Source of the DNA: Prescottella agglutinans
Lineage (GTDB): Bacteria > Actinomycetota > Actinomycetes > Mycobacteriales > Mycobacteriaceae
Direction: 5' to 3'
Assembly (NCBI RefSeq): GCF_004011865.1
Contig: NZ_RKLP01000010.1
Coordinates: forward strand, 213,193-277,192
DNA length: 64,000 nt
Shown in pieces: positions 14,991 to 35,404 of this stretch. Both the position numbers and the translations under genes were made by a program. The notes beneath the pieces were generated by a model that made no database searches, had not been told where the DNA came from, and saw only the letters and a list, made by a program, of their open reading frames with translations. Positions within the stretch are counted from its first letter, which is position 1. Each line of letters begins with the position of its first letter.

Positions 14991-15130
14991 GGGGCCTCCT
15001 TCGCGGGACGGACCCGCGTGGGAACGCTGCCTCCGCCGGGCGGCGAAGCGCGCCCAGTATCGCAGGAAAGTCGCTGCGGTGGAACGGTTTCGGGCTTTAT
15101 CGGAGCCGATCCGGATCAGATGGTGCGGCG

Positions 15131-15172
15131 GCGGGGCGGAGCCGCGGGCGCGAACCCGCGGATCCGCCCCGC
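15131..15172 (-). terminator. Hairpin terminator downstream of the formyltransferase
   Basis: An 18-bp stem with one mismatch (GCGGGGCGGAGCCGCGGG against its partner) closes a 6-base loop. It begins 12 bases beyond the formyltransferase stop on the minus strand and separates it from the PI-PLC gene. Confidence 0.75.
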
Positions 15173-15184
15173 CCGGACCGGGAC

Positions 15185-17161: not shown

Positions 17162-20100
17162 ATGTCTGCGGACCACTTGCCGGCTGCCCCCATGCCCGAC
17201 GCGTCCGTCGCGGGTCTACCCATCACCGCGGCGCAGTCCGAGATCCTGGTCGCGCAGCAGTTGGATCCGCAGAGCACCGTCTACAACCTCTCCCTGGTCG
17301 TCGAGGCCACCGGGCCCATCGACCTGGACCGTGCGGTCGAGGCGATCCGCCGGACCGTCGGCCACGCGGAGGCGCTGCACGTCCGGTTCCGGGTCGGCGA
17401 GGACCGGACGCTGCGGCAGGTGCCGGTGCCGTCCGATGCGTGGCCGCTCGAGGTGGTCGACGTGCGCGACGCCGCCGATCCCGAGGCCGCCGCGCAGGAG
17501 TGGATGGACCGGGACATGGCGGCCGTCGTCGACGTCACCGGCGACGACGCGCTGTTCGCGCATGCGCTGCTCCGCCTCGCCGACGACCACACCCTCTGGT
17601 ACCAGCGCTACCACCACAGCATCGTCGACGGCTTCGGCATCTCGCTGATCGTCGCCGACATGGTCGCGCGCTACGACGATCCCGACCTCGAGTCGAAGGC
17701 GGGAGCGTGGGCGCTGCGCGACCTGGTCGACGCCGACGTCGACTACCGCGGTTCGGCGCGGTTCGAGGCCGACCGGGACTACTGGCTCGCCCAGATCCTC
17801 GACGCGCCCGAGCCGCCGCAGATCTGCGCGGGCGGCGCCGACGCCTCGGCCACGCCCGAGTCCACGACCGTCACGATCGACGCCGCCATCGCGGACGCGC
17901 TGTACGAGTTCGCGTCCGCCGCGGGAATCCGTCGCACCAGGCTGCCGATGGCGCTGATCGTCGCCTACATGCACCGCGTCACGGGCCTGCGGGACCTCAC
18001 CGTCTCGGTGCCGATGGCCGCGCGCGTCGGCCGCGCGATGCGGCGCACCCCCGGCATGGCGTCGACGATCCTGCCGGTGACGTTCCACGTGGATCCGGGC
18101 GCCACCGTCGGCGACCTCGCGCGCGCGATCGACGCGCAACTGGTGGCGACGCTGCGGCACGGGCGTTTCCGCGGCGAGGACCTCGCCCGCGAGGTGCGCG
18201 CGATCGACCCCGACCGGCGCGTGTTCGGTCCGGGCATCAACTCGATGATGTTCGAGCACGTGCTCGAGTTCGCCGGCCACCCCGCCCACATCCGCGGCTC
18301 GGTCACGGGGCCGGTCCAGGACCTCGACTTCTCGATCCAGGGCGGCGAGGACGGCGAACCGATCCGCATCGACCTGCGTGCCCCGGCCGGGCAGCGTGCG
18401 GAACTGCTGCGCCACGAGGAACGACTGGCGCACTTCGTGTCCCAGTTCCTGCGCAACCCGATGGCCGCCGTGGGTGCGCTCGAGCCGATGACCGACGACG
18501 AGCGCCGCCGCGTTCTGGTCGACTGGAACGACACCGCCGAACCCCAGCCGTCGCGCACCGTCCCGGAACTGTTCGCCGACGCCGTCCGACTGGATCCGGA
18601 CGCCGAGGCTCTCGTGGCCGGCGATCGCCGACTGACGTACCGGGAGTTGTCGGAGCGCGTCGCCCAGCTGGCACACCACCTGCGCGATCGCGGTCTCCAG
18701 CCGGAAGAGGTTGTGGCCGTGGGTCTGCCGCGGTCCGCGGAGATGGTCGTCGGCCTGCTCGCGGTGCTGTGCGCGGGCGGGGCGTTCGTGCCGCTGGACC
18801 CGTCGTGGCCGCAGGAGCGCCGCGACTCCGTCCGCGCCGACGCCGCGGCCCGCCTGGTGCTCACCGGCCCGGGCGGGGTGGACGCCGGAACCGACTCGGT
18901 GCACGTCGATCTCGCCGACTGGTCACACGGCGACCAGCCGACGGACCTGCCGGACGGTGACCTCGACGGCCGCCGTCTCGCCTACGTGATCTTCACGTCC
19001 GGCTCCACCGGTCGGCCCAAGGGCGCGATGATCCGGCACGAGGCGATCTGTGCGCGCCTGTTGTGGCAGCGCGAACGCATCCTCGGGTTCGGTGCCGCCG
19101 ACGCGTCGCTGTTCAAGGCGCCGCTGTCCTTCGACATCTCGGTCAACGAGATTCTGCTGCCGCTGGTGTCGGGTGGTCGGCTGATCGTCACCGAGCCGGG
19201 CGGCGAGCGCGACCCGCAGTACCTGCTCGATCTCATTGCCCGCGAGCGCGTCACGTTCGTGTACCTGGTGTCGTCGATGCTCGACGTCCTGCTGGACCTG
19301 GCCCGCGGCACCGACCTGCTGGCCGGGCTGCGGCACGTGTGGTGCGGCGGCGAGGTGCTCACCCCGGACCTGTTCGACCGGTTCCGTCGCCAGTTGTCGA
19401 CGACGCTGTATCACGGGTACGGTCCGGCCGAGGCGACGATCGGTGTCTCGCACGTGATCTACCGCGACGACGCCGCCCGCATCGCGACGTCCATCGGCCG
19501 CCCCAACCCCAACACCCAGCTGTACGTTCTGGATTCGCAGTTGCGCCCGGTGCCGGAGGGCATCGGCGGCGAACTGTACGCGGGCGGCTATCTGCTGGGC
19601 CGCGGCTACGTCGGCGCGCCCGGCCTCACCGCGGCGCGCTTCGTCGCGAACCCGTTCGGCGACGACGGTTCCCGGCTGTACCGCACCGGCGACCTGGCGC
19701 GTTGGAGCGCCGACGGCACCCTCGACTTCCTCGGCCGCGCCGACAACCAGGTGAAGATCCGCGGCATGCGCCTCGAACTCGAGGACGTCGAGGCCGCGCT
19801 CGCGTCCAGCCCGGACGTTCGGCACAGCGCCGTCCTGGTCCGCAAGACCCCGGCCGGCGCGAACTACCTTGCGGCGTACGTGGTTGCGGACGGCGACGGG
19901 CAACCCTCCGTCGACGCGCTGCGGGCGTGGGCGTCGGACAAGCTGCCGGAGTACATGGTGCCGTCGGCCTTCGTCGTCCTGGACGCGTTCCCGCTCACCC
20001 CGAACGGGAAGCTGGATCGCCGGGCGCTGCCGGAGCCCGACCTGGCCGCGGCGAGCGAGCACGTCGCGCCGCGCACCGCGCTCGAGTCTGCGCTGTGCGC

Positions 20101-23100
20101 GATGATCGCGGAGGTGCTCGGGCTCGAGCAGGTCGGTGTCACCGACGACTTCTTCGCCCTCGGCGGCGACAGCATCGTCGCGATCGCACTCGTCAACCAG
20201 GCGCGGCGCGAGGGCTTCTCGATCAGCGCGCGCGACATCTTCCAGCTCCGGACCGCTGCTGCGCTCGCGGCCGCGGTCGACGGCCGGGTCGAGGACGCCG
20301 CGGACACCGACGACGTCGCAGTGGGCGAGATCCCGGCCACGCCCGTCGTTGCGCGCGTGTGCGCCCCCGGCACCGACGTCCGCACCTTCCACCAGTGGGT
20401 ATCGGTGCAGACCCCGGCCGGGCTCGACGAGGCGACCGCGACGGCAGCCCTGCAAGCAGTCGTCGACCGGCACGATGCGCTGCGCGCGCGGTGGAATCGG
20501 GAGACCGGGACGCTCGTGGTCCCGGAGACGGCGGCGCCGGTGACGATCCACGTGTCGGACGTGTCCGGCGACGTCGACGCCGCGGTGGCCGCCGACCGGG
20601 AGATCGTGGTCGACCTGCTCGATCCCGAGTCCGGGATCATGCTGCAGGCCGCCCTGTTCCACTGCGCTGACGCCCCGGGCCGGCTGCTGCTCGTCGCGCA
20701 CCACCTCGTCGTGGACGGGGTGTCGTGGCGGATCCTGCTGGAGGACTTCGCACGTGCCGCGACCGCGATCCTCGCCGGCGCCGCCGAGCCGACGACCGGC
20801 TCGGCTGGTGTCGACCTGCCGCCGGTCGGGACGTCGCTGCGCCGGTGGGCGCAACTGTCGGACGAGCGCGCCCGGTCGGGCGCGTTCGACGACGAACTCG
20901 GCTACTGGCGGTCGGTGACGGCCCCCGGCACGCTCGAGATCGGCTCGCGTGCACTCGATCCCGCCACCGACACGTGGGCCACCGCGGACACCGCGACGGT
21001 CGAGACGACCGCGGAGGTCGCCGCGCCGCTGCTCACCGAGGTGCCCGCCGCGTACCACGCTGGCGCGGGCGACGTCCTCGTCGCCGCGCTGGCGCTGGCG
21101 CTGCGCCGCTGGCGGGGCGGTGACGGCAGTGACCTCGACGTACTGGTGGACCTCGAGGGCCACGGTCGCGAGGAACACCTCGTGCGCCGGGCGGGCACCG
21201 CCCTGGACGTCTCGCGCACGGCCGGTTGGTTCACCACTGTCTACCCGGTGCGACTCGATGTCGCACCGGACGACGTCCCGTCGGCGCTCAAGTCCGTCAA
21301 GGAACAGCTCCGCCGCGTCCCGAACAACGGATTCGGTTACGGCGCACTGCGATACCTGAACAACTCCGGTGGTGACCTGGCGACCGGTACCACGCCGCCG
21401 GTGCTGTTCAACTACCTCGGCCGGGTCGCGTCCGGCGCCGGCGTCGACTGGCTTCCCACCGCGACCGGCGGTGCCAGCGACCCGGCGATGCCGATCGGAC
21501 ACGCCCTCACCGTCGACGTCATCGCGACCGACGGACCCGACGGGCCGACCCTGCACACCACGCTCAGCTGGGCCGACGGCGTGCTGTCGCGGGCCGAGGT
21601 CGACGAGTTCGCCGACCGCTGGCGCGCCGCGCTGCGCCAGATCGCCGCCGCCGTCGCCGACGGCGGCCACACCCCGTCCGACTTCCCGCTGGTGCCGCTG
21701 GCGCAGGTCGACGTCGACCACGTCGCGGAGGCCACGCCGACGTTGGCCGACATCCTGCCGACCACCCCGCTGCAGGACGGCATCTACTTCCACAGCGTCT
21801 ACGAGCGCGACGGTGTCGCCGACACCGAACCCGACCCGTACGTGGTCCAGCAGATCGTCGAACTGACCGGCGAGGTGGACGCGGTCGCGCTGCACCGGGC
21901 GCTGCAGGGCGTCGTCGACCGGCACGCCGTGCTCCGGGCGGCGCTGCGCCCGCTCTCCGACGGCCGTGTGGTGCAGGTGGTCTCGGCGAGAGCGGACGTC
22001 CCGATGACCGTGCTCGACCTGTCCGGCGACCCGGACCGGTCGGGCACCGTCGACCGCATGCTTGCCGCGGATCGGCTGCGCGGCTTCGACTTCGAGCGTC
22101 CACCGCTCGTGCGCTACACGCTCGTCCGGACCGAACCGGCGAAGTTCCTGCTGCTGCAGTCGATCCACCACGTGGTCGCCGACGGCTGGTCGGTGCCGGT
22201 GATGCTGCGGGAGCTGATGGCGCTCTACAGCCCGTCCGGCACCCCGCTCGCGTTGCCCGCGCCGGCGCCGTACCGGAACTACCTGGGATGGCTGGCGTCG
22301 CGTGACCGCGACGCGTCGCTCGAGGTGTGGCGCCAGGCGCTCGCCTTCGCGGACGAGCCGCCCACCCTGCCCTTCGCCCCCGCCGCGGGAGCGAAGGGCG
22401 TGCGCAGCGTGGAGGTCTCGCTGTCGGACACCGCGACCGCGGCGCTGGATCGGCTGGGCCGGGACCGCGGGCTGACCGTCAGCACGCTCGTCCACGGCGC
22501 GTGGGGTCTGCTGCTGGCGCGCCTCACCGGACGCCGCGACGTGCTGTTCGGGTCGACCGTGTCGGGCCGCGGCGGCGACCTACCCGGCATCGAATCCATG
22601 GTCGGACTGTTCATCAACACGGTGCCCGCCCGGCTGCGCCTGCGCCCCGACGAGACGGCCGCGGACGTCCTGGCGCGCTGGCAGTCCGAACAGTCGGCGC
22701 TGCTCGAGCACCAGTACGTGGGGCTCGGTGAACTGCGTCGCCTCACCGGTCTGCAGGAACTCTTCGAGACGCTCGTCGTGGTCGAGAACTACCCGATCGG
22801 GAGCACGGCCATCGCGGACCCGTCCGGCACCGTGCGGCTGACCGGCATCCGGTTCGACGAACATCCGCCGTACCCGCTCACGCTCATCGCCGTGCCCGGC
22901 GACCGGTTGCGGTTCGAGGTCAAGTACGACGCCGCCCGCGTCGGCGGTGCCACCGCCGCGCAGATGGCCGACGGACTCGCCGCCCTGCTGTCGGCGCTGC
23001 CGGAGGCGATCGACCGCCCGGTCGCGGCGCTCGCGCTCGCCGGACGTCCCGCGCCGGCGCCGCGCACCGAGTTCCCGTCGACGACCGTGACCGCGCTGCT

Positions 23101-26100
23101 CGAGGAGCAGGCAGCGCGCACCCCCGAGGCCACGGCGGTGGTGTTCGAGGGTCGGTCGCTCACCTACCGGCAGCTGCACGAGCGGGCGAACCGGCTGGCG
23201 CACATGCTGATCGACCTCGGTGTCCGGCCGGAGGCGAAGGTGGCCGTCGCGCTGCCGCGGTCGCTCGAGCTGATGGTGGCGCTGCTCGCGGTCGGCAAGG
23301 CCGGCGGCGCCTACGTGCCCCTCGACACCGGCTACCCGGCCGAGCGGCTCGCGTACATGCTCGACGACTCGGCCCCGGTGTGCGTGCTGACGACCGCTGC
23401 GGTCGCCGCGGCCCTCCCGCAGGGCGGTGCCGAGACGATCCGGGTCGACGAGATCGACCTGGACGGCTACCCAGTCGAGCGCCCGGAGGTCGCACCGTCG
23501 CCGCAGCACCCGGCGTACGTGATCTACACGTCCGGCTCCACCGGACGGCCCAAGGGTGTCGTCGTCCCGCACGTGGGTTTGGTAAACCGCCTGCTGTGGA
23601 TGCAGACGTTCCGGCCGATCCTCGGCACCGACCGCGTGCTGCAGAAGACCCCGTCGAGCTTCGACGTCTCGGTACCCGAGTTCTTCGGGCCGCTCCTGGC
23701 CGGTGCCACGCTCGTCCTCGCGCGCCCCGACGGCCACCGCGATCCGGAGTACCTGGCCGAGTTGATCGTCGACGAGCGGATCACCCGGGCCCACTTCGTG
23801 CCGTCGATGCTCGAACTGTTCCTCGCCGAGCCCAAGGCCCGCGCCTGCGCGGGGCTGCGCGTGGTCGCCGCCAGCGGGGAGGCGCTGCCGCTGTCGGTGG
23901 CACGCCGGTTCGCGGACGTGCTGCCCGGGGCTCTGCTCGACAACCTCTACGGCCCCACCGAGGCGTCGGTGGAGGTCAGCTTCGCGGCGGCCGTGCAGGA
24001 CCTGCCGACCACCGCCGCGGCCGTCCCGATCGGCCTCCCGGTCTCGAACACCGGTCTGTACGTGCTGGATCCGTACCTGCAGTCCGTCGTCGACGGCGGC
24101 ACGGGAGAGCTCTATCTCGCGGGCCCGCAGCTGGCGCGCGGATACCTCGGTCGGCCCGACGTCACCGCCGACCGCTTCGTCGCCGATCCGTTCGGCGCGC
24201 CCGGCGAGCGCATGTACCGCACCGGCGACATCGTGCGCCGGGGCGCAAACGGCGCGATCGAGTACCTGGGTCGGGCCGACGACCAGGTGAAGCTGCGCGG
24301 CTTCCGCATCGAGCTGGGGGAGATCGAGGCCCAGCTGGCCTCGCACCCCGAGGTGGCCCACGCGGCGGCGGTGATCCGGGAGGATATCCCCGGCCACCAG
24401 CAGCTCGTCGGCTACCTCGTCGCCGACCCCGCGCTCGACACCGAGGCTGTCCGCCGACACGTCGGAAGGGCGTTGCCGGAGTTCATGGTGCCGACCGCGC
24501 TGGTCGTGGTCGAGGCGCTGCCGCTCAGCCCGAGTGGCAAGCTCGACCGACGGGCGCTGCCCGCGCCGACCGTCCAGAACCGCACGAGCACGGACGGTTC
24601 GGCTCCGAGCGGCCGCTCCGCCGTGGTCGCCGGTCTGGTTGCCGAGGTCCTCGGCCGCGACACGGTCGGGGAGGACGACGACTTCTTCGCGCTCGGCGGC
24701 GACAGCATCCTCGCGATCCGCCTGGTGAACCTCGCTCGCCGCGAGGGCATCTCGATCACCCCGCGGCAGATCTTCGAGCAGCGCACCGCGCGGGAACTGG
24801 CGCGGCTGATCGGCGACACCGGGACATCGGCCGACGAGAGCGCGCCGACCCGCGCACCGATCACCACCACCGGCGACACCCTGCCCATGCCGGTCGTACA
24901 CCGGCTCTCGGAGTGGAGCGGTGGAACGGACCGCTTCAACCAGGCCGTGCTGCTGCACAGCCCCGCCGGATCGACGGCCGAGAACATCACGACCGCACTG
25001 CAGTCCGTCCTCGACCACCACGACGGGCTGCGGCAGTGCCTGACCCGGCACGCGCCGGGGGTGTGGTCGCTGCACATCGCCGAGCGCGGCACCGTCGCGC
25101 CGTCGCTGCGCCGCGTGGACGTCAGCGGTCACGACGAAGCGCAGTTGCGTGCGGTGATCGGGACCGAGTCGGCGGCCGCGGCCGACCGCCTCGATCCTGC
25201 GTCCGGCGCGGTCGTCGAGGCCGTGTGGTTCGACGCCGGCGAGCACGATCTCGGACGCCTGCTGCTGGTCGCCCACCACCTCGTCGTCGACGGCGTCTCG
25301 TGGCGGGTGCTGCTCGAGGACCTGCCGATGGCGTGGGTGGCGGCCCGGTCCGATCTACCCGCCGCGCTCGACCCCGTCGGCACCTCGCTGAAGGAGTACG
25401 CGGAGATCGTCACCGCGCACGCCCAGCAGCCCGCCCGGCTGGGTGAACTGGCGCACTGGCGTGAGATCACCTCTTCCGGAGCCGAACTCGTGCCGTCGGC
25501 GCAGGGTGACGCCACGATCGGCACCGGATCGAGCCGCACCGTGCGACTGACTGTCGCCGACACCGAGGCCGTGCTGACCGCCGTGCCCGCGCTCGCGCAC
25601 GCCGACGTCACCGACGTCCTGGTGACCGCGCTGCGCATCGCCGTGACTCGTTGGTTCGCCGAGCAGGGACGCGCGTCGGACCTGCTGGTCGATCTCGAAC
25701 GGCACGGTCGCGAGGAGTTGTCGGCCGGTGTCGACCTGTCCCGCACCGTCGGCTGGTTCACCAACATCACCCCGGTGCGCCTGCCCGGCGGCAGCGACGG
25801 CGTCCAGGCACTCAAGTCGGTCAAGGAGGCGCTGCGCGCCGCGCCGAACGGCGGCATCGGCTACGGCATGCTGCGGTACACCAACGCCCGCACCGCCGGG
25901 ATGCTGGCCGCGGGTGCATCGGCGCAGGTGCTGTTCAACTACCTGGGCCGGATGCCCGCCGGCCTCGTCGGGCCGTGGAGCACGGCGCCCGAAACCGACG
26001 TCCTGGCAACCGAACCCGACGCCGACATGGGCGGTCCGTACCGGCTGCTCGTCAACGCGCTGTGCGAGGACACCCCGGACGGGCCCGTGCTGAGCGCGGT

Positions 26101-29100
26101 GTTCGGCTGGTCCGAGCCGGACCTGTCCGCCGCGGATGCCCGCGCCCTGAGCGACGGTTGGGCGGCGGCGCTGAGCGAACTGGCCGTCCTCGCCTCGCAG
26201 CACGACGGGCCCGCCGCGCTCACCCCGTCCGACGTTCCGCTGACCGCCCTCACCCAGGGCGAGATCGACACCGTCGTCGACGCCGCTCCCACGGCCGTCG
26301 AGACCATCTGGCCGCTGTCGCCGCTGCAGGAGGGCCTGTACTTCCAGGCCGGAATCGCCGACGGCGCCGACATCTACACCGCCCAGTTCTCGCTGGACTT
26401 CGACCGGCACCTCGACCTGGAGCGACTGGCCGCCGCGATCCGCACCCTGCAGCGCCGCAACCCGACGCTGCGTGCCGGATTCGCCAGTGCCGGACTGAGC
26501 GCGCCGGTGCAGTTCGTCACCGCCGGACTCGACGTCCCGATCACCGAGGTGGACCTGCGCGACCTCGACGACGCCGCCCGGGAGGACCGGGCCGCGCAGT
26601 TGATGCTCGCGGATCGGCTCACCCCGTTCGACCTCGCGGCGCCGCCGCTGTGGCGCGCGCTGGTGCTGCGCCTCGGCGAGGACCGCGACCGCCTGGTGAT
26701 CAACCGCCAGTTCCTGCTGTGGGACGGCTGGTCCAACGGCCTCGTCGTCAGCCAACTCCTCGCGCTGTACGAGACCGGTGGCGACGACACCGGATTCGTC
26801 ACGCCCGACGGCGGATTCGACGACTACCTGTCCTGGCTCGCCGGCCGCGACGGTGACGCCGCCCGCGCCGCGTGGGAGCGGACGCTCTCCGGGCTCGCCG
26901 AACCGACGTTGCTGGCGCGGCGGACCGGCGCACCCGCCGGCCTGCCCGACCGCCGTGATGCGGTGCTCTCCCGCGAACTCGGCGAGCGCCTGCGTGCCCA
27001 GGCGACACGGGCGGGTGTCACGTTCAACGCGATCCTGAACGCGGCGCTCGGGCTGGTGCTCGCCGGTGCCACCGGTCGGGGCGATGTCGTGTTCGGCACG
27101 ACGGTCGCCGGCCGGCCGCCGGAGGTGCCGGGAATCGATTCCGTGGTCGGCATGTTCCTCAACACCGTGCCGGTGCGGATGTCGCTGCAGCCGAACGAGT
27201 CCGTCGCCGATCTCATGCGCCGCACCCAGTCCGAGCGGCTCGAACTGATGCCGCACGACTATCTCGGCCTCGCCGCGATCCAGCGGACGAGCGAGCACCG
27301 GGAACTGTTCGACGTGCTGTACGTGCTGCAGAACTTCGTCGACGAGAACCAGGTGTCCGCGCTGCACTCCGCGCACGACATCAGCGGCGGCGACAGCATC
27401 GACCACACGCACTACCCGCTCACGGTGGTCGTCACGCCCGGCGCCGAGACCAAGGTGAAGTTCGAGTTCCACCCCGACAAGGTGGCGGCGTCGGACGCCG
27501 AACGGATGCTCGAGTCCTTCGTCGGACTCCTCGAACAGTTCGCCGGGGACCTCGACGTGCTCGTCGGCCGGACGAACACGCTCACCCCCGCCGACCGCGC
27601 CCTGCTCGCGGTCCGGCAGGTCGAGACCGATCACCCGGTGCCGGAGCGGACGATCGCGGACCTGTTCGCCGAGACCGCGCAGCGGATCCCGGACGCCACC
27701 GCGCTGGTGTTCGGCGACGTCTCCGTCGCCTACGCCGATCTCGACGCCCGGATCAACCGGATGGCGCGGGTGTTGCTCGCGCACGGCGCCGGTCCGGAGA
27801 GGATCGTCGCGCTCGCGCTGCCGCGGTCGGTGGAGACCGTCGTCGCGCTGTTCGCGGTGCTGCGGACCGGTGCCGCGTATCTGCCGCTCGAGCTGGACCA
27901 CCCGGCCGAGCGTCTGGTGGGGATGCTCGACGACGCCCGCCCGGTCACGATGGTGACCACCGCGGCGGTCGCCGAAAGCCTCTCGGCGGCAACGGTCGAC
28001 GCGATCGTCCTCGACGACGCGACGGTTCGCGACACGCTCGGCGCCGCCGACGGGTCCGCGCTCCCCGGCGCCGAACTCGGCGGCTTCGCGCCCGGCACCC
28101 CGGGCCGCATGGACCATCCCGCCTACGTGATCTACACGTCCGGCTCCACCGGCCGACCCAAGGGTGTCGTGACGCCGTACCGCGGCCTGACGAACATGCA
28201 GTACAACCACCGCGAGGCGATCTTCGACCCGGTCGTGCGCGGGGAGGACGGCCGCACGCTGCGCATCGCGCACACCGTGTCGTTCGCGTTCGACATGTCG
28301 TGGGAGGAGTTGCTGTGGCTCGTGGAGGGCCACGAGGTGCACATCTGCGACGAGACGCTGCGGCGGGACGCGCGGGCACTGGTCGCGTACGGCGACGAAC
28401 ACGAGATCGACGTCGTGAACGTGACGCCCACGTACGCGCGGCACCTCATCGAGGAGGGCCTGCTCGACGACGGTCCCGGCCGGCACCGGCCGCCGCTGGT
28501 CCTGCTCGGCGGCGAGGCCGTCTCCGATCACGTGTGGGACACGTTGCGCGACACCGACGGCACGTGCGGCTACAACCTGTACGGGCCCACCGAGTACACG
28601 ATCAACACGCTCGGCGGCGGGACGATGGACAGCGCGACCCCGACGGTGGGGCGCCCGATCTGGAACACCGTCGCCCACATCCTCGACGGCTGGCTCCGGC
28701 CCGTCGCCGACGGGGTGCCCGGCGAGCTGTACATCTCCGGTGTCGGGCTCGCACGCGGCTACCTCGACCGGTTCGGACTGACCGCCGAGCGGTTCGTCGC
28801 CGACCCGATCGTGGGCGGGGGTGCGCGGATGTACCGCACCGGCGACCTCGTCCGCCGCGGCGTCGACGGCAACATCGACTTCCTCGGCCGCACCGACGAT
28901 CAGGTGAAGATCCGTGGTCACCGCGTGGAACTGGGCGAGGTGGAATCCGTGCTGGCCGCGCACGACGCGGTGCGGCAGGCCGCCGTGATCGCGGACGCCG
29001 GTCCGGGCGGAATCAAGCGTCTGGTCGCCTACGTCGTGCCGGGGCGCGAGGGCGCGGCCGACGACGTTGCAGCCCACGCCCGGAAGGTGTTGCCGGACTA

Positions 29101-32100
29101 CATGGTTCCGGTTGCGTTCCTGGCGGTCGACTCGTTGCCGATGACCGTCAACGGCAAGCTCGACGTCCGGGCGCTGCCGTCGGTGGACACGGTGCTCGGG
29201 CAGGGCAGCGGTGAGTCCCGCGCGCCGCGGGACGCCGTCGAGGAGACCCTGTGCCGCCTGTTCGGCGAGGTGCTCGAGTTGGCCGTCGACCTCGGGATCG
29301 ACGACAACTTCTTCGACCTCGGCGGCCACTCGCTGCTCGCGACCCGGCTGATCAGCCGGGCACGTGCGGAACTGTCCACAGAACTGACGATGCGCGACCT
29401 GTTCGAGGCGCCCACCGTCGCCGAACTCGCGGAGCGAGTCGCGGGCCGATCCGACTCGATCCGCCCGCTCCTGGTCGCGGGGGAGCGGCCCGAGCAATTG
29501 CCGCTCTCGCCGGCGCAGCAGCGGCTCTGGCTGATCCAGCAGATCGAGAAGGACACGGCCGAGTCCGCCAGTTCGTACAACTTCCCGATCGTGCTGCGCC
29601 TGCGCGGCGACCTCGACCCGGCCGCGTTCACCGAGGCCCTCGCCGACGTCGTCGCGCGGCACGAGGTGCTGCGCACCGTGTTCGGTGACCACGACGGCGA
29701 ACCGGTCCAGGTGATCCTCGCCGACGCACGTCCCGAGGTGACCGTCGTCGAGGCGGCTCCGGAGGAGGCGGCCGCGCTGGTGGCCGCCGCGGTCGGACGC
29801 CCGTTCGACCTGGCCACCGAGATTCCCGTGCGCGCCACGGTGATCCGCGTCGGTGATCGCGAGCAGGTGCTCGCCCTGGTCCTGCACCACATCGCCACCG
29901 ACGAGTGGTCGGACCGGCCGTTCCTGCGTGACCTGATGGTCGCGTACGGGGCACGCACGCAGGGTGCGGAGCCGCAATGGACTCCGTTGCCGGTGCAGTA
30001 CGCCGACTTCACGTTGTGGCAGCGGGCGCTGCTCGGTGACTCGTCCGACGGCGACTCGCTGATCAGCCGCCAGCTCGACTACTGGGCCGGCGTGCTCGAC
30101 GACGCGCCCGAGGAACTGGTGCTGCCGGCCGACCGCACTCGACCCGCGCGACCCAGCTTCGTCGGTGGCGCAATCGAACTCGATCTCGACACCGAGACCA
30201 CCGTGGCGCTGCGGGCGCTGGCCCGCGAGCACGGCGCGAGCATGTTCATGGTCCTGCATGCCGCGTCGGCCACCCTGCTGCAGCGGCTCGGTGCCGGCGA
30301 CGATCTGCCGCTGGGTGCGCCGGTGGCCGGGCGGGCGGAGCCGGGGCTCGACGAGTTGGTCGGCTTCTTCGTCAACACCGTGGTGCTCCGCACCGACGTC
30401 TCCGGTGACCCGACGTTCGCGGATCTGCTGGCGCGGGTCAGGGAGCTCGACCTGGCGGCGTTCTCGCACGCCGACGTGCCGTTCGAGGCTGTCGTCGAGC
30501 GCCTCAACCCGGCGCGCACGCTGGCCCGGAATCCGCTGTTCCAGGTGATGGTCGGCTACCACAGCCGTACCGCAGACCCGGCGCCGTCGGCCGACCTGGC
30601 GCTCGCACCGGTGTCGATCGAGGAGCGCACCGCCAAGTTCGACCTGGTGTTCAACTGGACGGAGTTCCTGGACGAGGACCGCGTGCAGTTGCGCCTCGAG
30701 TACAGCGCCGACCTGTTCGACGGGGACTCCGCCGACCGCATGGCCCGCCGCCAGATCGCGGTCCTCGGGGCCGTCGCCGCGGATCCCGCGACACGGGTGT
30801 CCGACGTCGACGTGTTCCTCTCCGGCGAGCGCGACGCGGTGCTGCGCGAGTTCAACGACACCGCACGTCCGGTCGAGGAGCTGACGCTGCCACAGGCGTT
30901 CGACCGGTGGGCGCGGGAGACGCCCGACGCGGTGGCCGTCGCGGACCGGGACGGTGAGGCGACGTTCGCCGAACTCGACAAGCGTTCCCGTCGGATCTCG
31001 GCGGTGCTCGCGGCGCGCGGGGTCCGCACCGAAAGCGTGGTGGGCCTGGCCGTTCCGCGTTCGATCGACATGGTGGCGTCGGTGCTCGCAGTGCTGCGCC
31101 TGGGCGCGGCGTACCTGCCGCTCGACCTGACCCACCCCGAGGACCGCATCTCGTACATGCTCGAGGACTCCGGTGCCGGGATCCTGCTGACGACGTCGTC
31201 GGAGTCGGCGCGCATCGCCGCGGCGGGCCTCGAGCGGGTCCTGCTCGACGATCCCCTCGTGATCGCCGAAACCTACGGTCGCGCAACCGACGGACTGCCG
31301 ACGCCGCCGGCCGGACTCGACCACGCCGCGTACGTGATCTACACCTCGGGCTCGACGGGACGGCCCAAGGGCGCGGTGCTGCCGCACGAGGGCATCATGA
31401 GCCTGGTCGCCACGGCCGAGGACCGGATGAAGCTGACGACCGGATCGGTGGTCATGCAGTTCGCGTCCGTCGGCTTCGACGTCGCGGTGTTCGAGTTGTC
31501 GATGGCGCTGTGCACCGGTTCGACGCTGGTGATCATCCCGGAGGAGGCGCGGGTCGCCGGTCCGGAACTCACCGACTTCATGCACGAACGGAACGTCACG
31601 CACGCGATCCTGCCGCCGTCGCTCATGGCCGCGCTGCCGCCGGGATGCCTGGTGCCGGAGGGCTGCACGGTCCTCGTCGGCACCGAGACGGTGCCGCCGG
31701 ACCTGATCGGGCGGTGGGCCGAGCGGCTGAATCTGCTGGCCGCGTACGGATTGACCGAGGCGACCGTCAACAACACCCTGTGGCAGGCACAGCCGGGGTG
31801 GACGCAGTCGGTGCCCATCGGCATCCCCGACCCCAACGAGCAGGCGTTCGTGCTCGACGACCTCCTGCGCCCGGTGCCTCCGGGCGTGCCGGGCGAGTTG
31901 TACATCGCCGGGCGCGGTCTGGCCCGCGGCTACCTCGGCAGGCCGGCGCTCACGGCGGGCCGGTTCGTCGCCAATCCGTTCGGCCCCGGACGCATGTACC
32001 GCACCGGTGACCGTGCGCGGTGGCGCACCGACGGGAACATCGACTTCCTGGGTCGCGTCGACGACCAGGTGAAGATCCGCGGATTCCGCATCGAACTCGG

Positions 32101-33946
32101 CGAGATCATCGCCGCCCTCGCCGGCCACCCGCAGGTCAGCCACGCCGCGGTGGTGGCCGACCGCGAGGGCGGCATCACCCGCCTGGTCGGTTACGTGTCG
32201 CCGGAGTTCGTCGACAGAGCGGACGCCACCCACACCGTGGATGCGGCGGAGGTCCGCGCGCACGCCGCGCAGACGCTGCCGGACTACATGGTGCCGACGA
32301 TGGTCGTGGTGCTGCCCGGCGCGCTGCCGCTCACCCCGAACGGCAAGCTCGACCGCAAGGCGTTGCCCGCGCCGGACTGGTCGGCGCTCGCCGGCGACGG
32401 CAGCCCGCGCGACGACGTCGAAACCGAACTGTGCGAGCTCTTCTCGGAGATCCTGCACCTGCCGGCGGTCGGCATCCACGACGGTTTCTTCGACCTGGGT
32501 GGGCACTCGATGGCGTCGATGAAGCTCGTCGGACGGGTCCGCGCCGTGTTCGGGTGCGACATCACGATCCGCGACGTGTTCGACGCCCCGACGGTGGCCG
32601 AACTGGCCGACGTCGTCCGGCGCGCCGAGAACCCGGCGCGGCCGGCGCTGGTGGCGACCGCGGCCACCGCTCCCGTTCCGCAGGCCCCGGTCCAGCGACT
32701 GCACTGGCTGCGTCACCGCGCCGCCGGGGCGTCCGCGCGCGCCGACCACGCGCTGGCGCTGCAACTGCGCGAGCGCATCGATCCCGAGGTGCTGGCGCGG
32801 GCGCTCGACGACGTCGTCGACCGGCACGTGCCGCTGCGGACCGTGTTCGCCCCGGACGGTTCCGAGGTGTTCGCCTCCGATGGTCCGCGGCCGGGCGTCG
32901 ACGTGATCGACGTCGGCGACGACGATCTGCACCGGCGGGCCTACGAGTTGGCGCAGTTGCGGATCGACCTCACCGGGGAGGCTCCGCTGCGCGTGCACCT
33001 GGTGAGCGACGACGCCGGACGTCAGGTGCTGCTGCTCACGATGCACTACCTCGCGGTGGACGAATGGTCGGTCGTGCCCCTGCTCGGAGACCTGTTGTCG
33101 GCCTACGCGTCCCGCACCGGGGGTAGCGAGCCGTCGTGGGAGCCGCTCGCGGTGGAGTACCCGGACTACGTGCGCTGGCAGCAGCAGTTGCTCGGCGACC
33201 CGGCCGATTCGTCGAGCCGGCACACCCACCAGCTCGAGTACTGGCGGAACAGGCTGTCCAACATGCCCTCCCGGCTGCACCTTCCCGCCCCGGCGGGGGT
33301 GCGGGAGCCGCGGCGCGAGATGGTGCCGATCGTGATCGACGCCGACCTGCACGACGGGATCGACCGGCTCGCCGTCCGTACCGGGACGAGCATGTTCATG
33401 ATCCTGCAGGCGGCGTTGGCCACGCTGCTGACGCGGAGCGGTGCGGGCACCGACATCCCGATCGGTTCGCTCGTCGCGGGCCGGACCGAGGACGCGCTCG
33501 CCCCGATGATCGGGTGCTTCTTCAACGTCGTCGTGATGCGGACCGACACGAGCGGGGACCCGGACTTCGAGGAACTGCTCGCCCGCATCCGCACCTCCAA
33601 TCTGGAGGCGCTCGATCACCAGGACGTCGGATTCGCCTATGTCGCAGCCGAACTCGGCGGCGGCGTCCGCTATCCGCAGGTGATGCTGGTCCACCACGAG
33701 CAGGCGCGCTTCGATGCGCTCGAGGGGGTGCTCGACGGCTTCCTGCCGGTGCCGGTCGGGCTGCCGTCGGCGGAGCTGACCCTCAGCTTCTACGAGCCGG
33801 TCGGGTCGGGTCCGGTGCACGCCTACTTCGAGTTCTCCACCGGTGCGCTCGACCGCGACGCGGTCGTGGGGTGGGCGCGGGAGCTGTCGTCGCTGGTGGC
33901 GTCGGTCGTGAACGGGGAGGTGTGGCCCGCGGCGGATCGGCTGTGA
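17162..33946 (+). CDS. Four-module hydroxamate-siderophore nonribosomal peptide synthetase with terminal C domain
   Basis: This 5594-residue synthetase has the order C1-A1-T1-E1, C2-A2-T2-E2, C3-A3-T3, C4-A4-T4, C5. Phosphopantetheine serines are Ser1004, Ser2515, Ser4057 and Ser5116. C1, C2 and C4 have intact HHxxxD motifs (151, 1669, 4242), as do both E domains (1180, 2705). C3 reads QF at 3183-3184 and C5 reads HY at 5295-5296. Ten-residue codes read by eye are A1 DINYWGGIGK (known for formyl-hydroxyornithine), A2 DVPHASLVEK (serine-like), A3 DMENLGLINK (known for hydroxyornithine) and A4 DVFILGAVNK (not assigned). The predicted chain is D-fhOrn, D-Ser, L-hOrn, X. The layout matches erythrochelin-type synthetases, where a terminal C domain releases the product as a diketopiperazine. 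Rhequichelin of R. equi is a plausible relative. There is no thioesterase. The ATG at 17162 has a weak ribosome site. Confidence 0.93.
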   Translation: MSADHLPAAPMPDASVAGLPITAAQSEILVAQQLDPQSTVYNLSLVVEATGPIDLDRAVEAIRRTVGHAEALHVRFRVGEDRTLRQVPVPSDAWPLEVVDVRDAADPEAAAQEWMDRDMAAVVDVTGDDALFAHALLRLADDHTLWYQRYHHSIVDGFGISLIVADMVARYDDPDLESKAGAWALRDLVDADVDYRGSARFEADRDYWLAQILDAPEPPQICAGGADASATPESTTVTIDAAIADALYEFASAAGIRRTRLPMALIVAYMHRVTGLRDLTVSVPMAARVGRAMRRTPGMASTILPVTFHVDPGATVGDLARAIDAQLVATLRHGRFRGEDLAREVRAIDPDRRVFGPGINSMMFEHVLEFAGHPAHIRGSVTGPVQDLDFSIQGGEDGEPIRIDLRAPAGQRAELLRHEERLAHFVSQFLRNPMAAVGALEPMTDDERRRVLVDWNDTAEPQPSRTVPELFADAVRLDPDAEALVAGDRRLTYRELSERVAQLAHHLRDRGLQPEEVVAVGLPRSAEMVVGLLAVLCAGGAFVPLDPSWPQERRDSVRADAAARLVLTGPGGVDAGTDSVHVDLADWSHGDQPTDLPDGDLDGRRLAYVIFTSGSTGRPKGAMIRHEAICARLLWQRERILGFGAADASLFKAPLSFDISVNEILLPLVSGGRLIVTEPGGERDPQYLLDLIARERVTFVYLVSSMLDVLLDLARGTDLLAGLRHVWCGGEVLTPDLFDRFRRQLSTTLYHGYGPAEATIGVSHVIYRDDAARIATSIGRPNPNTQLYVLDSQLRPVPEGIGGELYAGGYLLGRGYVGAPGLTAARFVANPFGDDGSRLYRTGDLARWSADGTLDFLGRADNQVKIRGMRLELEDVEAALASSPDVRHSAVLVRKTPAGANYLAAYVVADGDGQPSVDALRAWASDKLPEYMVPSAFVVLDAFPLTPNGKLDRRALPEPDLAAASEHVAPRTALESALCAMIAEVLGLEQVGVTDDFFALGGDSIVAIALVNQARREGFSISARDIFQLRTAAALAAAVDGRVEDAADTDDVAVGEIPATPVVARVCAPGTDVRTFHQWVSVQTPAGLDEATATAALQAVVDRHDALRARWNRETGTLVVPETAAPVTIHVSDVSGDVDAAVAADREIVVDLLDPESGIMLQAALFHCADAPGRLLLVAHHLVVDGVSWRILLEDFARAATAILAGAAEPTTGSAGVDLPPVGTSLRRWAQLSDERARSGAFDDELGYWRSVTAPGTLEIGSRALDPATDTWATADTATVETTAEVAAPLLTEVPAAYHAGAGDVLVAALALALRRWRGGDGSDLDVLVDLEGHGREEHLVRRAGTALDVSRTAGWFTTVYPVRLDVAPDDVPSALKSVKEQLRRVPNNGFGYGALRYLNNSGGDLATGTTPPVLFNYLGRVASGAGVDWLPTATGGASDPAMPIGHALTVDVIATDGPDGPTLHTTLSWADGVLSRAEVDEFADRWRAALRQIAAAVADGGHTPSDFPLVPLAQVDVDHVAEATPTLADILPTTPLQDGIYFHSVYERDGVADTEPDPYVVQQIVELTGEVDAVALHRALQGVVDRHAVLRAALRPLSDGRVVQVVSARADVPMTVLDLSGDPDRSGTVDRMLAADRLRGFDFERPPLVRYTLVRTEPAKFLLLQSIHHVVADGWSVPVMLRELMALYSPSGTPLALPAPAPYRNYLGWLASRDRDASLEVWRQALAFADEPPTLPFAPAAGAKGVRSVEVSLSDTATAALDRLGRDRGLTVSTLVHGAWGLLLARLTGRRDVLFGSTVSGRGGDLPGIESMVGLFINTVPARLRLRPDETAADVLARWQSEQSALLEHQYVGLGELRRLTGLQELFETLVVVENYPIGSTAIADPSGTVRLTGIRFDEHPPYPLTLIAVPGDRLRFEVKYDAARVGGATAAQMADGLAALLSALPEAIDRPVAALALAGRPAPAPRTEFPSTTVTALLEEQAARTPEATAVVFEGRSLTYRQLHERANRLAHMLIDLGVRPEAKVAVALPRSLELMVALLAVGKAGGAYVPLDTGYPAERLAYMLDDSAPVCVLTTAAVAAALPQGGAETIRVDEIDLDGYPVERPEVAPSPQHPAYVIYTSGSTGRPKGVVVPHVGLVNRLLWMQTFRPILGTDRVLQKTPSSFDVSVPEFFGPLLAGATLVLARPDGHRDPEYLAELIVDERITRAHFVPSMLELFLAEPKARACAGLRVVAASGEALPLSVARRFADVLPGALLDNLYGPTEASVEVSFAAAVQDLPTTAAAVPIGLPVSNTGLYVLDPYLQSVVDGGTGELYLAGPQLARGYLGRPDVTADRFVADPFGAPGERMYRTGDIVRRGANGAIEYLGRADDQVKLRGFRIELGEIEAQLASHPEVAHAAAVIREDIPGHQQLVGYLVADPALDTEAVRRHVGRALPEFMVPTALVVVEALPLSPSGKLDRRALPAPTVQNRTSTDGSAPSGRSAVVAGLVAEVLGRDTVGEDDDFFALGGDSILAIRLVNLARREGISITPRQIFEQRTARELARLIGDTGTSADESAPTRAPITTTGDTLPMPVVHRLSEWSGGTDRFNQAVLLHSPAGSTAENITTALQSVLDHHDGLRQCLTRHAPGVWSLHIAERGTVAPSLRRVDVSGHDEAQLRAVIGTESAAAADRLDPASGAVVEAVWFDAGEHDLGRLLLVAHHLVVDGVSWRVLLEDLPMAWVAARSDLPAALDPVGTSLKEYAEIVTAHAQQPARLGELAHWREITSSGAELVPSAQGDATIGTGSSRTVRLTVADTEAVLTAVPALAHADVTDVLVTALRIAVTRWFAEQGRASDLLVDLERHGREELSAGVDLSRTVGWFTNITPVRLPGGSDGVQALKSVKEALRAAPNGGIGYGMLRYTNARTAGMLAAGASAQVLFNYLGRMPAGLVGPWSTAPETDVLATEPDADMGGPYRLLVNALCEDTPDGPVLSAVFGWSEPDLSAADARALSDGWAAALSELAVLASQHDGPAALTPSDVPLTALTQGEIDTVVDAAPTAVETIWPLSPLQEGLYFQAGIADGADIYTAQFSLDFDRHLDLERLAAAIRTLQRRNPTLRAGFASAGLSAPVQFVTAGLDVPITEVDLRDLDDAAREDRAAQLMLADRLTPFDLAAPPLWRALVLRLGEDRDRLVINRQFLLWDGWSNGLVVSQLLALYETGGDDTGFVTPDGGFDDYLSWLAGRDGDAARAAWERTLSGLAEPTLLARRTGAPAGLPDRRDAVLSRELGERLRAQATRAGVTFNAILNAALGLVLAGATGRGDVVFGTTVAGRPPEVPGIDSVVGMFLNTVPVRMSLQPNESVADLMRRTQSERLELMPHDYLGLAAIQRTSEHRELFDVLYVLQNFVDENQVSALHSAHDISGGDSIDHTHYPLTVVVTPGAETKVKFEFHPDKVAASDAERMLESFVGLLEQFAGDLDVLVGRTNTLTPADRALLAVRQVETDHPVPERTIADLFAETAQRIPDATALVFGDVSVAYADLDARINRMARVLLAHGAGPERIVALALPRSVETVVALFAVLRTGAAYLPLELDHPAERLVGMLDDARPVTMVTTAAVAESLSAATVDAIVLDDATVRDTLGAADGSALPGAELGGFAPGTPGRMDHPAYVIYTSGSTGRPKGVVTPYRGLTNMQYNHREAIFDPVVRGEDGRTLRIAHTVSFAFDMSWEELLWLVEGHEVHICDETLRRDARALVAYGDEHEIDVVNVTPTYARHLIEEGLLDDGPGRHRPPLVLLGGEAVSDHVWDTLRDTDGTCGYNLYGPTEYTINTLGGGTMDSATPTVGRPIWNTVAHILDGWLRPVADGVPGELYISGVGLARGYLDRFGLTAERFVADPIVGGGARMYRTGDLVRRGVDGNIDFLGRTDDQVKIRGHRVELGEVESVLAAHDAVRQAAVIADAGPGGIKRLVAYVVPGREGAADDVAAHARKVLPDYMVPVAFLAVDSLPMTVNGKLDVRALPSVDTVLGQGSGESRAPRDAVEETLCRLFGEVLELAVDLGIDDNFFDLGGHSLLATRLISRARAELSTELTMRDLFEAPTVAELAERVAGRSDSIRPLLVAGERPEQLPLSPAQQRLWLIQQIEKDTAESASSYNFPIVLRLRGDLDPAAFTEALADVVARHEVLRTVFGDHDGEPVQVILADARPEVTVVEAAPEEAAALVAAAVGRPFDLATEIPVRATVIRVGDREQVLALVLHHIATDEWSDRPFLRDLMVAYGARTQGAEPQWTPLPVQYADFTLWQRALLGDSSDGDSLISRQLDYWAGVLDDAPEELVLPADRTRPARPSFVGGAIELDLDTETTVALRALAREHGASMFMVLHAASATLLQRLGAGDDLPLGAPVAGRAEPGLDELVGFFVNTVVLRTDVSGDPTFADLLARVRELDLAAFSHADVPFEAVVERLNPARTLARNPLFQVMVGYHSRTADPAPSADLALAPVSIEERTAKFDLVFNWTEFLDEDRVQLRLEYSADLFDGDSADRMARRQIAVLGAVAADPATRVSDVDVFLSGERDAVLREFNDTARPVEELTLPQAFDRWARETPDAVAVADRDGEATFAELDKRSRRISAVLAARGVRTESVVGLAVPRSIDMVASVLAVLRLGAAYLPLDLTHPEDRISYMLEDSGAGILLTTSSESARIAAAGLERVLLDDPLVIAETYGRATDGLPTPPAGLDHAAYVIYTSGSTGRPKGAVLPHEGIMSLVATAEDRMKLTTGSVVMQFASVGFDVAVFELSMALCTGSTLVIIPEEARVAGPELTDFMHERNVTHAILPPSLMAALPPGCLVPEGCTVLVGTETVPPDLIGRWAERLNLLAAYGLTEATVNNTLWQAQPGWTQSVPIGIPDPNEQAFVLDDLLRPVPPGVPGELYIAGRGLARGYLGRPALTAGRFVANPFGPGRMYRTGDRARWRTDGNIDFLGRVDDQVKIRGFRIELGEIIAALAGHPQVSHAAVVADREGGITRLVGYVSPEFVDRADATHTVDAAEVRAHAAQTLPDYMVPTMVVVLPGALPLTPNGKLDRKALPAPDWSALAGDGSPRDDVETELCELFSEILHLPAVGIHDGFFDLGGHSMASMKLVGRVRAVFGCDITIRDVFDAPTVAELADVVRRAENPARPALVATAATAPVPQAPVQRLHWLRHRAAGASARADHALALQLRERIDPEVLARALDDVVDRHVPLRTVFAPDGSEVFASDGPRPGVDVIDVGDDDLHRRAYELAQLRIDLTGEAPLRVHLVSDDAGRQVLLLTMHYLAVDEWSVVPLLGDLLSAYASRTGGSEPSWEPLAVEYPDYVRWQQQLLGDPADSSSRHTHQLEYWRNRLSNMPSRLHLPAPAGVREPRREMVPIVIDADLHDGIDRLAVRTGTSMFMILQAALATLLTRSGAGTDIPIGSLVAGRTEDALAPMIGCFFNVVVMRTDTSGDPDFEELLARIRTSNLEALDHQDVGFAYVAAELGGGVRYPQVMLVHHEQARFDALEGVLDGFLPVPVGLPSAELTLSFYEPVGSGPVHAYFEFSTGALDRDAVVGWARELSSLVASVVNGEVWPAADRL

Positions 33947-34066: not shown

Positions 34067-35404
34067 ATGACTGACAGTCAACGAGTCGGCGGTGCGGAAA
34101 CGCTCGACGTGGTCGGGATCGGGTTCGGTCCCTCGAACCTCGCGCTCGCGATCGCGATCGAGGAGCACAACGCGGAGTGTCCTCCCGACGAGCGGATCAC
34201 CGCTCGCTTCTTCGAGAAGCAGGAGGAGTTCGGCTGGCACCGGGGCATGCTCCTCGACGGCGCGACCATGCAGATCGCGTTCCCGAAGGATCTGGTCACG
34301 TTCCGCAACCCGCGCAGCGGATACAGCTTCTTCTCGTACCTGCACGATCACGGGCGGCTGGTCGACTTCGTGAACCACCAGACGTTCTTCCCCACGCGGG
34401 TCGAGTTCCAGGACTACCTGCAGTGGGCGGCCGCGCGCGTCACCGCGGACGTCCGGTACGGCACCACGGTCAGCGCGGTCGAGGGGATCGAGGACGCGGG
34501 CGCGGTGGACCGGTTCGCGATCTCGCTCGCGGACGGCACCGTCGTCCACGCCCGAAATGTCGTGGTGGGTGCGGGATTGCGGGAACGACTACCGGAGTGG
34601 GCTACTCCGTCGGCGCGGTGCTTCCACAACCACCAGTTCCTCTTCCGCATCGCGGAGATGCCGGAGCCGGTGCATCAGCGGTTCGTCGTCCTCGGCGCCG
34701 GCCAGAGTGCGGCCGAGGTGGTGCAGTACCTGCACAGCAACTACCCCGAGGCCGAGGTCCACAGCGTCTTCTCGCGGTTCGGGTTCAGCCCGGCCGACGA
34801 CAGCCCGTACGCGAACCGGATCTTCGATCCCGGCACCGTGGACGAGCTGCATGCCGCGCCCGCGGCCGAGCGGGCACGACTGCTCGAGCTGCACCGCGGC
34901 ACCAACTACTCGGTGGTCGACATCGAGCTGATCAACGAGCTGTACGCCACCGAGTACCAGGAGCTGGTCCGCGGCGAGCGGCGGCTGTTCATGCGACGCG
35001 CGTCCGAGGTCAGCGCGGTGCGCGAGGACTCCGACGGCATCGAGGTCTCGGTGCACAGCACTCTCGACGGCCTCACCGACACGTTGGCGTGCGACGCACT
35101 GGTGTTGGCCACCGGATTCTCGGCGACCCCGCTGGACTCGCTGTTCGGCGAGTCGTTTCCCGGCATCGGCCCGGACCGCGGCATCGGCCGCGATTACCGA
35201 CTCGATGTCGGACCGGAGGTCCGGGCGGGCATCTACATGCAGGGCGGAACGGAGAAAACGCACGGTTTGACGGCGTCATTGCTGTCCAATGTCGCGGTGC
35301 GCGCGGGGGAAATCCTCAATTCGATTCTCGCTCATCGAGATATCGGCGGACGCCTTGCTAGGCTGAGCGAAGACAACCCGTACGCGACAAGCGAGGTCAG
35401 ATGA
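34067..35404 (+). CDS. L-ornithine N5-monooxygenase (siderophore biosynthesis)
   Basis: This 445-residue flavin-dependent N-hydroxylating monooxygenase belongs to the SidA/PvdA/IucD family. The FAD-binding motif GIGFGPSN is at 17-24, the NADPH-binding motif GAGQSAAE starts at 210, and the family ATGF motif is at 348-351. The region [20 protein letters not shown] is typical of ornithine or lysine N-hydroxylases. It would hydroxylate the side-chain nitrogen of L-ornithine using NADPH and O2, giving hydroxyornithine for modules 3 and 4 of the NRPS and, after formylation, for module 1. Ornithine rather than lysine is favoured because the NRPS codes match hydroxyornithine. The MbtH gene overlaps its stop by four bases. 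Confidence 0.93.

Follow-up and report, generated by a model that had tools for sequence, protein, structure and literature searches.

A condensation domain lacking the motif histidines in a predicted siderophore synthetase of Prescottella agglutinans, and its association with hydroxyornithine-coded modules

The window analyzed here, a stretch of 64,000 nucleotides from Prescottella agglutinans (contig NZ_RKLP01000010.1, positions 213,193 to 277,192 of the forward strand), contains a gene for a four-module nonribosomal peptide synthetase (NRPS), whose third condensation domain (C3) has neither histidine of the HHxxxDG motif. By motif, the domain order of the protein is C1-A1-T-E1 / C2-A2-T-E2 / C3-A3-T / C4-A4-T-C5 (C, condensation; A, adenylation; T, carrier; E, epimerization). 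The features concerned are as follows, numbered from the first letter of the window.

17162..33946, + strand: four-module NRPS, 5594 amino acids (open reading frame; Pfam Condensation, AMP-binding and PP-binding; motif positions)
18527..20011, + strand: A1, code DINYWGGIG (read from our own hidden Markov model (HMM) alignment)
24944..26251, + strand: E2, the epimerization domain preceding C3, motif AHHLVVDGVS (motif)
26288..27592, + strand: C3, the His-less condensation domain, residues 3043-3477 (Pfam PF00668 and our own HMM)
26705..26734, + strand: motif RQFLLWDGWS, R3182-S3191, at the HHxxxDG site of C3 (in-frame reading; strand and helix borders of the model)
26711..26713, + strand: codon of Phe3184, aligned with the second (catalytic) His (the column that best separates the domain groups)
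26720..26722, + strand: codon of Trp3187, part of WDGWS and the second mark of the His-less set (column comparison)
27629..29191, + strand: A3, code DMENLGLIN (our own HMM alignment)
29474..30871, + strand: C4, canonical HHIATDEWS, preceding A4 (motif, our own HMM)
32654..33931, + strand: C5, terminal C domain, MHYLAVDEWS, with Tyr replacing the second His (motif, our own HMM)
34067..35404, + strand: ornithine N5-monooxygenase (Pfam PF13434, E 7e-101)
15185..16123, - strand: formyltransferase (Pfam PF00551 and PF02911)

The remaining two codes, from the same kind of alignment, are DVPHASLVE (A2) and DVFILGAVN (A4). We take the four codes to stand, in order, for N5-formyl-N5-hydroxyornithine, a Ser-like residue, N5-hydroxyornithine (hOrn) and an acyl-hOrn. 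Downstream of E2, the donor of C3 is predicted to be D-Ser. No thioesterase (TE) was matched by Pfam in the 5594-residue protein, and the terminal C5 is likely to be a diketopiperazine release domain, by analogy with the role that we assume for its counterpart in erythrochelin-type NRPSs. The monooxygenase, the only strong match of its kind in the genome (next 1.5e-13), is predicted to be the source of hOrn, and the formyltransferase, whose NCBIfam matches all fall under the cut-off, to formylate it. The hOrn-Ser-hOrn-hOrn order, terminal C domain, lack of a TE and nearby hydroxylase and formyltransferase are those of the erythrochelin/rhequichelin type, as we take its codes and definition to be, and the NRPS is predicted from its sequence to be a siderophore synthetase of this type.

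The original prediction had reported that C3 reads RQFLLWDGWS in place of the histidine motif, at 26702..26731. The letters are right and the place is not: in-frame translation of 26702-26731 gives N3181-R-Q-F-L-L-W-D-G-W, and the motif lies one codon later, at 26705-26734. The residue numbers given then, Gln3183 and Phe3184, hold in the translated frame, as does the absence of the second His; these two residues stand for both histidines of HHxxxDG. The sister domains read HHSIVDG (C1), HHLVVDG (E1 and E2), HHVVADG (C2), HHIATDE (C4) and HYLAVDE (C5). RQFLLWDGWS is found in 10/10 orthologues among the best 120 of 940 proteins ranked by similarity to C3. Within the genus, 8 of 14 genomes, including the source genome, have a C3 match in an open frame of 5588-5674 codons, and all eight carry the same motif; more distant Rhodococcus relatives have RQF or REF. 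The replacement, conserved across orthologues and genus genomes, is neither a sequencing error nor a matter of chance.

C3 belongs to the condensation superfamily PF00668, with both a Pfam match and a complete C fold; NCBIfam gave just long NRPS models, far under their cut-offs. It shares with canonical LCL/DCL domains the fold, the place between a carrier or E domain and an A domain, and the Asp-Gly-Trp-Ser of the motif, but differs in having no His at either position and a Trp before the Asp, so that the HHxxxDG by which LCL/DCL domains are recognized, with its second His, is replaced by RQFLLWDG. Heterocyclization domains are likewise C-type domains with HH replaced, but by DxxxxD, whereas C3 has QFLLWDG. 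Its position after E2 and before A3 is not that of an epimerization domain. The accessible part of a 2023 survey that names 18 C subtypes gives HHxxxD as the nearly invariable motif, with heterocyclization domains as the exception (PMC10212144).

The AlphaFold2 model of C3, built from an alignment of 54 relatives, has a predicted local distance difference test score (pLDDT) of 89.9 and a predicted TM score (pTM) of 0.87, and supersedes an earlier model from 7 sequences that was weak at the motif loop. In a Foldseek search, its query-based TM score (TMq) was 0.90 to 9bfd_B, a tyrocidine synthetase chain, and 0.89 to 9lco_A. The modeled strand 133-141 ends at Q3183 and the following helix begins at G3189, borders that fit the ordinary HHxxxDG register. 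A shifted register, with the first His taking over, was considered and rejected: C3 has Q at that position and relatives have E or R, and the model keeps the strand end and helix start of HHxxxDG. Ratios of nonsynonymous to synonymous substitution rates (dN/dS, Nei-Gojobori) against five orthologues are 0.209, 0.230, 0.182, 0.178 and 0.156, compared to 0.083-0.282 for the other ten domains; C3 is under purifying selection. The earlier statement that the rest of C3 is complete holds, and the domain is confidently folded in the model.

To relate the motif to the module that follows it, we pooled 1812 distinct C sequences located directly before an A domain. They come from relatives and are not a random sample; identical sequences were counted once, and C domains shorter than about 370-380 residues, or with no A domain within 250 residues, had been dropped. 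Before a hOrn code (pattern DM[ED][ND][LMV]GL[IV]N), 399 domains have a residue other than His at the second position and 44 have His; before other codes, the numbers are 1 and 1368 (n=1369), and the exception has a cut-off hOrn code. An unmatched code follows a non-His domain only at loci L033 and L049, where the hOrn code is truncated (DMEN-----, DMENLG---).

The protein lists behind this pool were the best 120 of 940, of 2150 and of 7971 matches. In the first, selected by similarity to C3, 178/178 C domains before DMENLGLIN have no second His, and every other C domain that immediately precedes an A domain keeps it. With 120 further proteins (best 120 of 2150), 222/230 domains before DMENLGLIN are without it and 774/782 before other codes keep it, the other 8 preceding near-identical codes such as DMDNLGLIN. 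Since these two sets had been chosen by C-domain similarity, a search with the A3 domain was added (best 120 of 7971; 119 new). Here, 57 domains before DMENLGLIN are His-less and 28 have His, while 355/356 before other codes keep it, the exception having the near code DMDNLGLIN. The 28 HH domains represent other C types, 27 with HHxxxDEWS and one with LHHLVADGWS, and 25 of the 28 sit in modules following another hOrn module; across the protein sets the same applies to 32 of 35 hOrn-coded HH domains. The code DMENLGLIN is thus paired with two kinds of C domain.

Searches with A3 in whole genomes, 396 of the phylum (13 matching) and 394 of the class (62 matching), partly the same genomes, recovered His-less domains again, as well as HH counter-examples. 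From one of these searches 54 of 71 places were taken in, the 17 left out being weaker matches (E 2.9e-146 or worse); a further set comprised 30 loci from a longer list. Another 80 loci were retrieved with a pattern that includes the motif, and their 73/73 are not independent evidence, although they are inside the pooled 1812; these loci also gave 6 further non-His rows with near, cut-off or unread codes or motifs. The donor code before His-less domains varies (beta-Ala-like, Thr with an E domain, Ser with or without one), while the acceptor code is constant. At the level of sequence, the loss of His is shown to be tied to the acceptor A code and not to the donor.

For a comparison of alignment columns, 94 His-less domains were set against HH domains, 110 of 198 of DGWS type and 70 of DE type. 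The column of the second His separates the groups best (L 58 %, F 28 % and V 5 % in the His-less set; H 100 % in other C domains), followed in rank order by L3389, W3187, Y3387, R3359, L3333, Q3390 and D3176. Column 3187 is W in 88 % and F in 8 % of the His-less set, and A/L/V or T/M/G in other C domains. Asp3188, Gly3189 and Ser3191 are retained at 100 %. Across His-less domains the second position is occupied by L, F, V, M, A, T or Q, as if no particular residue were required there, and the first by H in most of them and by Q, E or R in the rest. Compared to DGWS types, the His-less set has Q or R for the usual Glu at column 3390, a difference that is not diagnostic. Loss of the acid at 3189/3390 was tried as a better marker and abandoned; it was perfect on a subset, but 389/1368 other HH domains are also without the acid. 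We define the His-less hOrn clade by a non-His residue at the second position, a W or F before DG and a place directly upstream of a DM[ED]..GL.N code; C3, with Phe, Trp and DMENLGLIN, falls within it and groups with its other members in the FastTree and IQ-TREE trees.

Relatives of two product types carry such domains. Five three-module synthetases of 3648-3698 residues (loci L112, L113, L148, L149 and L150), matched to CchH by architecture, have the coelichelin order (formyl-hOrn, Thr, hOrn; two E domains) and read YHLLLWDGWS before hOrn. Like C3, their third C domain has no second His, precedes the code DMENLGLIN and follows an E domain; unlike C3, it keeps the first His and has a Thr donor code rather than Ser. 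These proteins end after the hOrn module, whereas the Prescottella NRPS continues with C4-A4-C5. The EtcD/foroxymithine/rhequichelin type, represented by P0276 of Saccharopolyspora sp. K220 and P0012 of Prescottella equi, shares with our NRPS the hOrn-Ser-hOrn-hOrn order, the terminal C domain and a His-less C3. P0012 is directly orthologous to it (89 % in C3). P0276, whose modules are ordered as in the erythrochelin type, differs in its motif (HHLALWDGWS), in its A1 code and in that no E domain was found by our own profile.

In coelichelin, erythrochelin and foroxymithine, the residue preceding this hOrn is reportedly carried on N5. We infer that the bond made by C3 would also be to N5, both by analogy with these compounds and because a synthetase ending in C5 without a TE probably releases its product as a diketopiperazine, which would leave neither alpha-nitrogen free. 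Albisporachelin was considered as proof of the linkage and set aside: no genome is available, and the accessible part of its description reports an ordinary linkage (PMC6024995).

Our preferred reading, to which we give a probability of about 0.7, is that C3 belongs to a conserved His-less clade preceding hOrn-coded modules and joins D-Ser (predicted) to the N5-hydroxylamine of hOrn, in a reaction predicted to need no His. Basicity is lower and nucleophilicity higher in an N-alkylhydroxylamine than in an alkyl amine. At the pH of the cell, it would be largely unprotonated and strongly nucleophilic; C3 would align the seryl thioester and hOrn, and N5 could attack without help from a His. The histidine, which would serve alpha-amines, may have become dispensable with a hydroxylamine acceptor, and its absence may also disfavor the alpha-amine. 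The role of the HHxxxDG histidine (base, positioning or neither) is debated, and its loss does not abolish activity in some C domains, according to the accessible part of a study in which the His-to-Gln variant of a fuscachelin C3 domain retained ~1 % activity with Gly, an alpha-amine acceptor (PMC8097023). Given this low residual activity, the hundreds of conserved His-less domains would have to work differently, presumably with another nucleophile or another requirement. A broader proposal has a little less than an even chance in our estimate: His-less hOrn C domains would form a separate hydroxamate-forming subtype, His being needed for alpha-amines and not for the hydroxylamine; the fuscachelin branch would keep HH to acylate the alpha-amine too; and the motif would predict N5 versus alpha linkage.

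Several observations weigh against the preferred reading. Within the wider clade, HH is kept by ten distinct C domains that precede an A code of the same kind, all of them in modules followed by a TE-like motif. Most are of fuscachelin type (loci L143, L144, L146, L147 and L163-L169, several of which are the same places), and six are in Thermobifida-like FscI-type modules. These C-A-T-TE modules have the same A code as the C3 module, and their C domains group with the His-less clade in IQ-TREE trees; unlike C3, they keep HH (FHHIVMDGWS, SHHI..) and are followed by a TE. In the accessible part of the report on fuscachelin and cellulochelin, the products carry a Ser-N5 hydroxamate, and in the fuscachelin type a second chain is on the alpha-amine of hOrn (PMC13251462). 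By our own count, a ten-membered ring requires Ser on N5, and the second chain must then be on the alpha-amine. An N5 hydroxamate does not require loss of His, because these modules keep HH and yet their products have that bond. In the genome survey, where a GxSxGG-type motif beyond the last domain was taken as the sign of a TE, such a TE-like motif follows 10/10 distinct HH domains (fuscachelin-like, L160 and L170) and 2/53 distinct His-less ones (L111 and L145), 9 of the 53 having fewer than 300 residues after the A domain or ending there. On one reading, the branch that keeps HH also acylates the alpha-amine.

Coelichelin counts against that reading. It is said to contain two formyl-hOrn and to have an acylated hOrn alpha-amine, and the CchH-like domains are nevertheless His-less, so a rule that alpha-acylation needs His would not explain every case. 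The accessible part of a review, unlike this account, gives coelichelin two Thr (PMC9854754). Furthermore, the pooled sequences include many close relatives and are not independent trials, the clade may stem from a single loss, and part of the pool was retrieved with the motif itself. The predicted identity of the C3 acceptor as hOrn is also taken from specificity codes. The original prediction had proposed that a C domain without the His may be one adapted to a hydroxylamine nucleophile. The association stands (399/443 hOrn-coded domains against 1/1369 others, and five coelichelin-type synthetases), while a strict rule is contradicted by the ten clade members with HH. Had the homologues predicted to make the same linkage all kept HH, this would have told against the proposal; they do not all keep it, but some, of fuscachelin type, do.

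The history of the loss was examined in trees of dereplicated subsets: 608 of 1727 sequences (FastTree), 589 with fuscachelin-type sequences added, and two smaller sets of 94 and 85 (IQ-TREE). In the first, all 110 dereplicated His-less domains form one clade (support 0.997). The fuscachelin-type sequences, when added, join it, with support of 0.47 for the most recent common ancestor. In both IQ-TREE trees the hOrn-acceptor domains form a clade together with the fuscachelin-type HH branch (ultrafast bootstrap 99 and 93); L170 (HHHILWDGWS) adjoins the His-less part or falls in it, and L129 (SELILLDGWS) lies apart. If His was never regained, these trees suggest two or three losses; a single His-less clade is not rejected by the approximately unbiased (AU) test (p = 0.146; 0.447 with L129 alone set aside), and any number of losses from one to three agrees with the trees. 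Repeated independent loss, to which the IQ-TREE trees point, is not established by the AU test. Separately, L170/L194 have both histidines together with the Trp of the His-less group (HHHILWDGWS) in a TE-terminated module, possibly an intermediate state.

Among alternatives to the preferred reading, one involves the same chemistry and another selective reason, namely that His was lost chiefly so that the alpha-amine is not positioned or activated and the N5-hydroxylamine wins. This is quite possible, with the odds somewhat against it. In the accessible parts of two studies, the acceptor amine lies close to the His in a Gly-bound fuscachelin C3 structure (PMC8097023), and the second His of a putrescine-using C domain is credited with substrate positioning (PMC10587159). 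Of the 35 hOrn-coded HH domains in the protein sets, the 32 located after another hOrn module, which represent other C types, are predicted to be alpha-linked, and fuscachelin-type modules, with their second chain on the alpha-amine, keep HH. The coelichelin-type modules, His-less despite a reportedly acylated alpha-amine, do not agree with it.

It is less likely that the pattern is a relic, in which an ancestral hOrn C-A unit lost His by drift and was then copied, with no functional link to the nucleophile. The single FastTree clade of 110 domains and the AU p value of 0.146 fit such a history. However, a column that is His in 1368/1369 other C domains is non-His across all 399 sequences, the comparison with five orthologues shows C3 to be under purifying selection, and W3187, L3389, R3359 and Q3390 have changed alongside. 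In addition, DMENLGLIN is found behind HH domains from other lineages too, so C and A domains do recombine, and the placement in the best trees of L170 next to or among the His-less domains, and of L129 apart from them, would mean two to three losses.

We consider it improbable that C3 is catalytically dead, docking donor and acceptor only while the hydroxylamine reacts uncatalyzed or another enzyme makes the bond. Neither His position offers an obvious base in this domain (Q, F) or in those of L111 and L145 (R-R-F), but L006, L013 and L066 have R-E-F, whose Glu could in principle act, and the complete predicted fold, the full retention of Asp3188, Gly3189 and Ser3191 and the purifying selection speak against a dead domain. 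Finally, that the change reflects a donor D-residue, as the position of C3 after E2 might suggest, is almost certainly wrong: C2 likewise follows an E domain and keeps HH, and some His-less domains come after beta-Ala-like or Ser modules with no E domain detected in them, architectures that refute donor stereochemistry as the cause.

Other variants of the motif were noted. The C5 motif at 33041-33070 (MHYLAVDEWS) is also without the second His. Where the second position is H or Y in terminal DE-type C domains (73 cases), 51 read HY, 10 SY, 2 GY and 10 HH; such terminal domains are likely to be diketopiperazine-forming release domains with a His loss of their own. Before the code DAQEGGLVD (P0103, P0117 and others), 40/40 C domains in the best 120 of 940 read QH, with the first His replaced and the second kept; HHIAGDEWS also occurs before this code in other sets. 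An apparently degenerate E-like domain with HP for HH (AHPVLLDARS and similar) is found at about residues 2070-2450 of P0075, P0088 and other Amycolatopsis NRPSs. The best 120 of 940 contain 29 such HP domains, some outside Amycolatopsis, and in P0075 it lies directly before a His-less C domain.

Elsewhere in the window, two neighboring ABC transporter genes with membrane and ATPase domains (6818-10320, + strand) could possibly serve siderophore transport. Pfam matches on the minus strand comprise a PI-PLC X domain (13962-15488), Y_phosphatase3 (12999-13850) and a glycosyltransferase of family 20 (4948-6477).

Judged by titles and the beginnings of abstracts, none of the papers listed in our literature searches, with subscription papers mostly beyond reach and two listings cut at 15 of 35 and 30 of 36, describes a His-less hydroxamate-forming C domain. 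Hundreds of presumably working His-less C domains share one kind of acceptor code, so the role of the histidine can be tested with natural proteins. P0123, P0122 and P0166 (Pseudonocardia included) contain three consecutive hOrn-coded modules, with the first two C domains His-less and the third HH, and such tandem modules offer a natural test of the linkage rule within one protein. If the proposed relationship is true, the motif would be a genome-mining marker for side-chain hydroxamate linkages.

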